NCBI GenBank assembly: GCA_947426355.1
Contig: CANEDU010000009.1
Coordinates: forward strand, 1-34,722
Source: an uncultured Adlercreutzia sp.
GTDB taxonomy: Bacteria > Actinomycetota > Coriobacteriia > Coriobacteriales > Eggerthellaceae
Direction: 5' to 3'
Length of the DNA: 34,722 bases
Below, piece by piece: positions 2,514 to 24,913 of this stretch. The notes below the pieces were generated by a model that worked only from the letters and a program-made list of their open reading frames with translations, had not been told where the DNA came from and made no database searches. A program made the position numbers and the translations under genes. Numbering within the stretch: the stretch's first letter is position 1; every line of letters begins with the position of its first letter.

Positions 2514-3152
2514 CTACGCGTTGGCGTGGTGCACGTAATCCTGAACATGGGAAAGAAAGGCCCGCTCGGTCTCGGCACGCGCCCGAGCGGGCTTGCACCC
2601 GCCCTCGATTTTCCGCTCGGCCTCGCGAATGTAGTGCAGCGTGGTCGTGAGCACCATACCCACGATGGCCACGGCCTCAAACGATGCGTCGATACCCGGG
2701 CGAATGCTGCCCTCGCGCTGGCCGCGCTCGATCTGGGAACGCAGCACGGCGAGCAGCCGCTCCTCCAAAACGCGCAGGGCATCCGACCACTCCCGCCCGC
2801 GACGCCACAACTCTGACACCAAAAAGCGCCCGAAATCGGCGTTGCGGAAGATAACGGCGGCGAAGGATTCCATCATGGCCACGAGCGCGTCGGTGGCCGA
2901 AGGGGCCGCGCTGGCGATGGCCTCGAAATCATCGACAATCCCGCCGACCCCCTCGGTCAGAATGCACGTGGCGATATCGGCCTTGCTGGCGAAGTGATAG
3001 TAGGCAACGCCCTTGGATACGCCGGCCACTTCCACAATGCGGTCCACGGTCGTGTCAGCGTAGCCCCGCTCGGAAATGACCGAGAGCGCCGCATCAAGCA
3101 ACTGGCGCCGCGTGGCATCCGCCTTACTCGTCTTCCCCCTCTGCTGGGCCAT
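2514..3152 (-). CDS. TetR/AcrR family transcriptional regulator
   Basis: One-component DNA-binding repressor of 212 residues. The N-terminal helix-turn-helix is clear: RRQLLDAALSVISERGYADT, then TVDRIVEVAGVSKGVAYYHF and SKADI, which are canonical TetR positions. The C-terminal ligand-binding half (about residues 65-200) is helical with no assignable ligand. I chose the ATG at 3152 because AAGGCGGG lies just upstream; an in-frame start at 3194 has no ribosome site. Its stop codon abuts the serA stop codon with no gap (convergent). The target is unknown: its own promoter or the neighbouring divergent gene are possibilities. Confidence 0.88.
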   Translation of the reverse strand: MAQQRGKTSKADATRRQLLDAALSVISERGYADTTVDRIVEVAGVSKGVAYYHFASKADIATCILTEGVGGIVDDFEAIASAAPSATDALVAMMESFAAVIFRNADFGRFLVSELWRRGREWSDALRVLEERLLAVLRSQIERGQREGSIRPGIDASFEAVAIVGMVLTTTLHYIREAERKIEGGCKPARARAETERAFLSHVQDYVHHANA

Positions 3153-23150: not shown

Positions 23151-24374
23151 ATGAGCAACTCGACTGAGTTTACGATGGGCAGAAGGTGGCTTATTTTCTG
23201 CTCGGTGTTCTTCCTGGGCGTTCTGACTTCGTTCTGCATGTTCAAGGCCCCCACTATGTTCACCACCGAGTTCATCAGCGAGCTCGGGTTCACTGACACC
23301 AATATCGGCTGGGTTATGTCGATGTTCACGCTTATCGGCGTTGTGCTCGCCTTCCCCGCCGGCGGCATTCTGGCCAAGCTCGGCACCAAGAAGAGCCTGC
23401 TCGTGACCGCGGCAAGCCTTATCATCGGCGCTGCAGGCGGCGCCCTGGCCACGAGCGCCACGTTCATGCTCGTCACGCGTTTCATCGAGGGCATCGGCAT
23501 GGGCCTCATGTCGGTCGTCGGACCGGCTGCCGTCGCTTCCATCATCCCGGCGCGCAAGCAGGGACTTGCCATGGGCATTTGGAGCGTCTGGTTCCCCGCC
23601 GGCGTTGTTGCCGCCTTCAATATCACGCCCATGGTGTACGCCCTTGCGGGCACCTGGCGCGCGAATTGGTGGCTCGCCGCTATCCTCGGCGTCATCGCCT
23701 TCGTTTTCGTGGCTTTTGTTTACGCCGACCCGCCGCAGGAGACCGTCGCGGAAAGCGACGGGGCGGCTGGCGCAGGCGAGGCCCTTTCGGCCCTTAAGCC
23801 GGATATGTTCAGCATTGTCATGGTGGCTTTGGCTTTCGGTGCCTGGAACGTGTTCAACGCGGGAGCCATCGGCGGATTCTATCCGACGTATCTGACCGAC
23901 GTGCATCATCTCGACACGCAGATGGCGGGGACCGTCTCCAGTGTCACGAACATCCTCGTTTTGGCCCTCGGCCCGCTGTCCGGCATCGCGGCCGACAAGT
24001 TCAACATCCACAAGGGCTTTATCGTGTTCGGCATGTTTGGCGCTGCCGCGCTTCTGACCTTCGGCTTCAGCGACAGCATGACGCTGGTGTGGGTGTTCGT
24101 TATCGCCCTGAGCTTCTGCTCCGCCTGCTGCTCGACCGGCGTGTTCTCAAGCGTTCCGCTGCTTGCGAAGAACCCGGCAAAGATCGGCTTCGGCATGGCC
24201 GTTGTTGCCTTCTTCCAGAACCTGGGCGGCCTTATCGGCTCGGCCGGCTTCCCGCTTGTCGTTGCCGCTATGGGCTGGAACGGTGCGTCCTTGGCTTTCT
24301 GCATTCCGTTCGCCATCGTAGGCGGCGTGTGCGCCGTGCTCATCCGCTCTGGCAAAAAGAGCAAGCAGGGCTAA
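23151..24374 (+). CDS. MFS transporter, oxalate/formate antiporter-like
   Basis: 407 residues, twelve predicted membrane helices in two halves. The A-motif-like loop between helices 2 and 3 reads GGILAKLGTKKSLL, and the equivalent in the second half is GIAADKFNIHKG. ERxxG-like and GMGLMSVVGPAAVAS segments fit the OFA/NarK-like MFS group. It follows the LuxR gene in the same direction and belongs functionally to the molybdoenzyme locus, where it probably imports the substrate, exports the product, or exchanges the two. AGGAG is placed well before the ATG. The transported compound cannot be deduced. Confidence 0.88.
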   Translation: MSNSTEFTMGRRWLIFCSVFFLGVLTSFCMFKAPTMFTTEFISELGFTDTNIGWVMSMFTLIGVVLAFPAGGILAKLGTKKSLLVTAASLIIGAAGGALATSATFMLVTRFIEGIGMGLMSVVGPAAVASIIPARKQGLAMGIWSVWFPAGVVAAFNITPMVYALAGTWRANWWLAAILGVIAFVFVAFVYADPPQETVAESDGAAGAGEALSALKPDMFSIVMVALAFGAWNVFNAGAIGGFYPTYLTDVHHLDTQMAGTVSSVTNILVLALGPLSGIAADKFNIHKGFIVFGMFGAAALLTFGFSDSMTLVWVFVIALSFCSACCSTGVFSSVPLLAKNPAKIGFGMAVVAFFQNLGGLIGSAGFPLVVAAMGWNGASLAFCIPFAIVGGVCAVLIRSGKKSKQG

Positions 24375-24864
24375 GCCTCCGCTCGCGCGCGCATCTCGCA
24401 TGAGACTCGCGTGCACCTGCGCCTAGCACCTTGCGTGCAGCACCAAAAAGACAGCCGTCCTTCGGGGCGGCTGTCTTGGTTATGCAGGTCCACTGCGAAG
24501 GGGGTTGCCCCTTGAAGCATGGAAGGCAAAAGCGCGTCCCACCTCCCTTGCCCGGTGCATGCATTCGAACGCTTCCGGAGAGCAGATGTGTCATGCACCA
24601 TGGCACGTGACCCATGACATAGTAAAGCCTCGAAAAAGGAAAGGAGCCCCGAGAGGCTCCTTCCTGTCGCATGTGGCGCTGCCACGCTTGCTTGGTGCGA
24701 GCTCGGCTGTACTTTGCCGGGCCGTGGGCGCCGTGGCCGCAAGCGAATCCGTTGTAGCGCGGCTTGCTCGCCAGCGTCGCCTCCTCGGACGACTGGCGCC
24801 ACACCACCTCGTCCTTCGGCTTCGGCACGTGCACCGGCACCGCCTTCTTGCGCTTCTTCGACAT
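24340..24864 (-). CDS. Small basic protein with an intrinsic terminator inside its reading frame; candidate ribosome-rescue (ArfA/BrfA-like) gene
   Basis: The start is strong: ATG at 24864 with AAGGAGG nine bases upstream, and a highly basic N-terminus (MSKKRKKAVPVHVPKPK) followed by KPRYNGFACGHGAHG, KYSRARTKQAWQRHMRQEG. No stop codon occurs in frame until 24340, inside the antisense of the MFS gene. However, at codons about 68-77 lies a hairpin, AAGGAGCC (loop) GGCTCCTT, followed by a TCCTTTTT run on this strand. Transcripts would then end near 24633, giving a non-stop mRNA and a product of about 77 residues. Residues past that point look non-coding. Non-stop mRNA from a terminator in the ORF is the control used by BrfA of Bacillus (ArfA of E. 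coli is related in logic). The ArfA motif KGKGSY is absent; loss of the normal stop by mutation is the alternative. Confidence 0.55.
   Translation of the reverse strand: MSKKRKKAVPVHVPKPKDEVVWRQSSEEATLASKPRYNGFACGHGAHGPAKYSRARTKQAWQRHMRQEGASRGSFPFSRLYYVMGHVPWCMTHLLSGSVRMHAPGKGGGTRFCLPCFKGQPPSQWTCITKTAAPKDGCLFGAARKVLGAGARESHARCARERRLSPACSFCQSG
24375..24632. other. Intergenic region after the MFS gene
   Basis: Apart from the antisense tail of the small basic gene, I see only hairpins: the terminator at 24448-24477 and TGTCATG (24592-24598) with CATGACA (24613-24619). No separate gene is supported. Confidence 0.5.
24448..24477. terminator. Terminator at the end of the MFS gene
   Basis: Perfect stem AAGACAGCCG with CGGCTGTCTT and a 10-base loop. 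The minus-strand exit has TTTTTGG, the plus-strand exit only CTTGGTTAT, so it is stronger in the minus direction but may act both ways. Confidence 0.6.
24633..24662 (-). terminator. Intrinsic terminator within the small basic-protein reading frame
   Basis: Minus-strand 8-bp stem AAGGAGCC (24655-24662) and GGCTCCTT (24641-24648), 6-base loop, then TCCTTTTT (24633-24640). It lies in frame at codons 68-77 of the 24864 gene with no stop codon before it. Confidence 0.75.
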
Positions 24865-24913
24865 ATCCTCTCACCTCCTTCAATATATAGGCCGCAGAGA
24901 CCCCATTCTACAC

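Follow-up and report, generated by a model that had tools for sequence, protein, structure and literature searches.

The window analysed here (34,722 nucleotides of DNA from an uncultured Adlercreutzia sp.) carries a gene that very likely encodes a small basic alternative ribosome-rescue factor, made from a non-stop mRNA and supplied according to the state of trans-translation, as judged from comparative sequence analysis and from analogy with known systems. With somewhat lower confidence, we propose that it probably belongs to a new family of the Coriobacteriia and a few phages in which the strategy of ArfA and BrfA evolved independently, that the family replaces ArfB where ArfB is missing, and that the copies with ordinary stop codons (in phages and in f4, another family of the Coriobacteriales) are constitutive. 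The family appears to be new, its regulation of a known kind, and its function probably of a known kind as well.

The open reading frame reported in the first-pass annotation at 24340-24864 does exist and encodes 174 amino acids; the annotation named no strand, and the frame lies on the minus strand, with its ATG at 24864 and its nominal end at 24340. The strong ribosome site claimed together with the ATG was also found: a near-perfect Shine-Dalgarno sequence, AAGGAGGTGA (24871-24880, minus strand), stands upstream of the start codon, and a GGAGG-type site precedes the gene in nearly all relatives. A putative -10 box read from the sequence, TAGAAT (extended, TGTAGAAT; 24905-24910, minus strand), would place the 5' end of the mRNA some 35 nt ahead of the ATG; TAGAAT or TAGGAT occurs at a similar distance in the close relatives L002-L006, and a strict sigma-70 scan of the locus returned no promoter site. 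Upstream, the gene is flanked by a rubrerythrin gene in the same orientation (25674-24973), and its other neighbour is a convergent MFS transporter gene (23151-24374). The nominal tail of the frame shares sequence with the transporter gene's last codons (up to 24374) and probable terminator (24450-24476); consequently, this tail is implausible as a coding region.

An intrinsic terminator inside the frame, with no earlier in-frame stop, had been proposed, and the sequence bears this out: a hairpin, GGAAGGAGCCTCTCGGGGCTCCTTTC, followed by CTTTTTCG, occupies 24664-24631 (11 pairs by scan, 10 without the outermost bulge), and codons 67-77 read GGAAGGAGCCTCTCGGGGCTCCTTTC-CTTTTT, with the hairpin in frame and the frame open. 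The hairpin proper (24639-24664, minus strand) encodes EGASRGSF and folds as RNA with -20.6 kcal/mol (z = -3.0 versus shuffles). The T tract (24633-24637, minus strand) is the predicted mRNA 3' end, which would give a non-stop message comprising codons 1-77, MSKKRKKAVPVHVPKPKDEVVWRQSSEEATLASKPRYNGFACGHGAHGPAKYSRARTKQAWQRHMRQEGASRGSFPF (24634-24864, minus strand), and the nominal remainder of the frame (24340-24633, minus strand) is predicted to be untranscribed. Taken from the window sequence alone, the in-frame hairpin is weak evidence, because chance alone is expected to give the loose terminator scan about 2 sites in every 2 kb, and because strong hairpins fall fairly often inside spurious GC-rich frames (10 of 66 open reading frames, mostly of this kind, in a set made up of the window and 400 kb from a close relative). 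Comparison across relatives puts the arrangement far beyond chance, as it recurs in 58 of 58 intact genes.

The protein was found in 58 of the 138 Eggerthellaceae genomes searched (19 of 48 genera). Named carriers include Adlercreutzia hattorii, A. mucosicola, A. equolifaciens, A. muris, A. caecimuris, Slackia, Parvibacter caecicola and Ellagibacter. Class-wide, the gene was present, relics included, in 53 of 398 genomes of Coriobacteriia, all of them in one order, and no member was detected outside the Coriobacteriia in a phylum sample of 356 genomes. The comparison set comprised 58 intact full-length sequences after removal of duplicates, from the Eggerthellaceae and the sister family f6. 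Their conserved core is W..SAEEATLA.KPRYNG.ACGHGAHGDAKYNRAKAKRAW. Searches of Pfam, NCBIfam, PHROGs and PDB sequences returned nothing credible, and no factor of this kind was found for the Coriobacteriia in the open-access literature. An AlphaFold2 model from the 58 sequences had low confidence (pLDDT 62), with two helices (residues 26-33 and 54-69), and gives no support for a fold. Residues 42 (Cys) and 47 (His) of the window protein are nearly invariant (ACGHGAHG), the Cys being missing in L014, L077 and L108. Two genomes of one genus, G111 (L022/L053/L096) and G112 (L024/L060), carry two diverged copies each.

The non-stop design is conserved throughout the comparison set. None of the 58 intact relatives closes the frame before or within the in-frame hairpin, and a T-rich stretch follows it; the hairpin has decayed in one, the duplicate copy L060, whose frame is still open, and that of L115 was assigned by reading the sequence. 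In the interval that starts 24 nt ahead of the hairpin and closes with the T tract, none of 57 sequences has an in-frame stop, compared with stops in 16/57 and 9/57 for the two alternative frames (25/114 together) and in 19/55 for the reading frame over an equal length just downstream; the Fisher p values (about 2e-7 versus downstream, 2e-5 for the other comparison) treat the relatives as independent, which overstates the significance. The first stop lies 1 to 163 codons past the T tract, and the tails are unrelated between species except in a few close pairs. The sequence before the hairpin has a pooled pN/pS of 0.147 (14 pairs), indicating purifying selection on the encoded protein, and the tail is not conserved in most pairs.

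Pairing was analysed in 53 aligned hairpins with a 4-base loop, using the ten inner pairs. Of the 530 cells for pairs 1-10, 527 held a standard pair, and each position showed several pair types (at position 4, G-C 34, C-G 13, A-T 5 and T-A 1). Hairpin sequence and codon phase vary by clade, all three phases are used (37/13/3), and the encoded residues vary accordingly, from EGASRGSFPF and EDARTRGRLPF to KGPHGPFF and DSSSFWCL. Since pairing persists across pair types and across all three codon phases, with compensatory changes and a conserved position, the hairpin is kept as an RNA structure and not as protein sequence. The more distant relatives L146, L148 and L150 are also non-stop, with unrelated hairpin sequences. 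The alignment of orthologues across the Eggerthellaceae thus gave the pattern that the first-pass annotation had set out for a rescue factor of this type: conservation covers the hairpin and the protein as far as about residue 77 and does not extend into the frame beyond, and no intact orthologue has a conventional stop before the hairpin, the sole case with a stop being the truncated relic L124. The opposite outcome, a conventional stop, was encountered only in two distant relatives of another family (L147 and L149), so that the expectation of a non-stop gene holds for the Eggerthellaceae and not for these two.

Departures from the design are of several kinds. In G009 (genus g2) only the last part of the gene is left, with a TGA before the hairpin, and the congener L093 has an intact gene beside a similar tRNA-like upstream sequence; we read the G009 remnant as a dead relic. 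L095 is frame-shifted internally. Detached 3' ends of the gene, about 20 codons plus the hairpin, were observed in L018 (about 1490-1600), L123, L125 and L124, where they directly follow the stop codon of another gene or adjoin a tRNA; they resemble remnants of deleted copies, with a terminator that may have been taken over by the adjacent gene. The non-stop members L146 and L148 of family f4, whose hairpin is a different one, are closer relatives than L147 (680-898) and L149 (652-858), which have an ordinary TAG stop, no in-frame hairpin, the N-terminal variation FRGxGNTVFHMDGVDVTL and ordinary chromosomal gene neighbours, and no ArfB was found in their genomes. Two viral contigs, L164/L166 (region 2962-3123) and L167 (3001-3162), encode a 54-aa relative, MAKKKQKIYCGTITSMQMFDAQKPQYNGFVCGHGPHKTKKSYNRKDKSWRNDLY, with an ordinary stop; it matched the family with an hhalign probability of 97.9%, a collection of annotated phages held no good match, and the phage copy is possibly a phage-borne constitutive rescue factor. 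Non-stop control is therefore not universal in the wider family, ordinary stops being present in two distant relatives and in both phage copies.

Ribosome rescue is regarded as essential throughout the bacteria. Transfer-messenger RNA (tmRNA) was present in all gene-bearing relatives checked, SmpB in 7 of 8 same-genus genomes checked (the missing one is the window genome, a fragmented draft of about 80% completeness), and RF1 and RF2 were present in the relatives; because carriers have tmRNA and SmpB, a non-stop product should be tagged. ArfA (PF03889, which matches the E. coli control) and RqcH (with a working control) were each found in none of 60 related genomes. Many Coriobacteriia do encode an ArfB-like protein with a GGQ domain and a basic tail, which was found in none of the 50 carriers of an intact gene in the Coriobacteriia sample. 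Among 111 Eggerthellaceae genomes, 43 had the gene, 18 had ArfB, none had both and 50 had neither; among 111 genomes of family f4 the gene was present in 4 and ArfB in 74, with no overlap, and about 33 had neither. Within genus g76, one species carries the gene and one ArfB. With genomes counted as independent, the exclusion has P values of 5e-5 (Eggerthellaceae) and 0.01 (f4), and by genus of about 0.03 and 0.02, values confounded by phylogeny, the exclusion being partly clade structure. The lack of overlap is what functional replacement predicts, and together with the absence of ArfA and RqcH it supports a role in rescue. One genome, G033 (L154), has a PrfH-like release-factor homologue rather than ArfB. 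Given the roughly 50 Eggerthellaceae and 33 f4 genomes with neither factor, other backup factors may remain to be found.

In the mechanism that we propose, transcription would end at the in-frame intrinsic terminator, a step strongly supported by the comparison, so that every mRNA would be without a stop codon and ribosomes would stall on reaching its 3' end. With tmRNA-SmpB working, the product of about 75 residues would be tagged and degraded; with tmRNA capacity exhausted or lost it would escape and accumulate, by analogy with ArfA and BrfA. The protein may then enter the empty A site and mRNA channel of non-stop ribosomes by way of its basic KYxRxxxKxxW segment, its basic C-terminal part binding in that channel. 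Peptide release would follow, most likely through RF1 or RF2 brought in by the protein, as a GGQ motif is missing from every member. Truncation, tagging, accumulation, channel binding and release-factor recruitment are established for BrfA (PMC6881298) and ArfA (PMC6299226, PMC8012679).

Among the known factors, BrfA (YqkK) of Bacillus subtilis is alike in being a small basic protein of a Gram-positive host with an intrinsic terminator inside the reading frame before the stop (PMC6881298), a feature predicted here from the 58 relatives. The BrfA mRNA encodes about 62 residues, compared with about 75 in the candidate; the BrfA host also has RqcH, unlike the candidate-bearing bacteria; and the Lys-His motif of the BrfA tail is not evident in the candidate, whose tail shows no conserved Lys-His pair. 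BrfA is described as confined to Bacillus and relatives (PMC6881298), and it was not among the PDB sequences retrieved by a profile search up to E = 10. Small size, a basic character and a non-stop mRNA controlled by tmRNA are likewise features of ArfA (YhdL) of Escherichia coli, although the arfA mRNA is also cut by RNase III. The spacing P-x-F/Y ... Y-x-R-x-K looks similar by eye, but the homology that it suggested was ruled out by an hhalign probability of 0.2% versus E. coli ArfA; the Pfam profile PF03889 matched none of 16 members, and the KGKGS motif of ArfA is absent from the family alignments. The earlier view that the gene belongs to a sequence family different from ArfA therefore stands on motif, profile and alignment alike. 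ArfT of Francisella tularensis, also a very small, basic and release-factor-dependent protein, has 40 aa, a KKGGSTNKK motif and a normal stop codon (PMC6299226); identity with ArfT was ruled out (65-99 codons in the candidate, no KKGGS-like motif, non-stop in nearly all members). Like arfT, the ordinary-stop members (L147, L149 and the phage copies) have no terminator ahead of their stop, and the wider family therefore includes constitutive-looking members, such as ArfT is described to be. ArfB (YaeJ) is proposed to do the same cellular job and never co-occurs with the candidate in the sampled Coriobacteriia, but it has its own GGQ hydrolase domain, is not made from a non-stop mRNA and is unrelated in sequence; identity with ArfB was ruled out, with no PF00472 match in the Pfam search and no GGQ in any member.

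Of the other explanations considered, the one that keeps the non-stop mRNA under tmRNA control and gives the protein another task (hibernation, ribosome splitting, regulation of trans-translation or of another stress response) is unlikely, and is the most probable of them. Homology tells no activity, as there is no sequence match to known rescue factors, and the conserved C42 and H47 could point elsewhere; a rescue role nevertheless agrees with the lack of both ArfA and RqcH and with the mutual exclusion of this gene and ArfB, and the non-stop genes described in the cited papers, arfA and brfA, encode rescue factors (PMC6881298). Slightly less probable again is that the hairpin serves not as a terminator but for mRNA processing of the RNase III type, known from E. 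coli arfA, with the same non-stop outcome. The perfect stems of 9-18 bp, the weak T tracts of a few members (L091, L046, L093) and the cleavage sites noted for arfA (PMC6299226) would suit processing, whereas the 4-6 T in the 6 bases right after the stem in most members are typical of an intrinsic terminator.

The remaining explanations deny the non-stop message itself. Every reading frame eventually meets a stop and terminators are never fully efficient, so an ordinary gene with a terminator over its C-terminal codons could be mostly read through and translated as the longer product; this is very improbable, as the tails of 1 to 163 codons are unrelated between most species, selection is visible in the core (pN/pS 0.15) and not in the tail of most pairs, and compensatory changes maintain the hairpin in frame. 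A stop lost through mutation or sequencing error in a metagenome-assembled genome, or a spurious frame, might be suspected in a fragmented draft of this completeness. This explanation is refuted, and left with next to no probability, by the recurrence of the arrangement in all 58 intact relatives, among them complete genomes (Adlercreutzia hattorii, for example). A ribosome-rescue factor encoded by a non-stop mRNA is the reading that we prefer.

Of the 3,213 Actinobacteriota in a survey of 15,259 genomes, 2,245 had ArfB, one had ArfA and not a single one had RqcH (PMC11633108), which leaves hundreds of Actinobacteriota with trans-translation as the only known system. A 2021 review considered that such systems may be hard to discover without genetic screens (PMC8012679); the present case suggests that such factors could generally be sought from sequence alone, as stop-free frames containing a conserved terminator that shows compensatory changes. 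The proposed factor would also have a bearing on trans-translation inhibitors as antibiotics. If our reading is true, the family would fill part of the backup-rescue gap of the Actinobacteriota, and the device by which a backup factor senses the failure of tmRNA, through the lack of a stop codon of its own, would have arisen once more, apparently independently.
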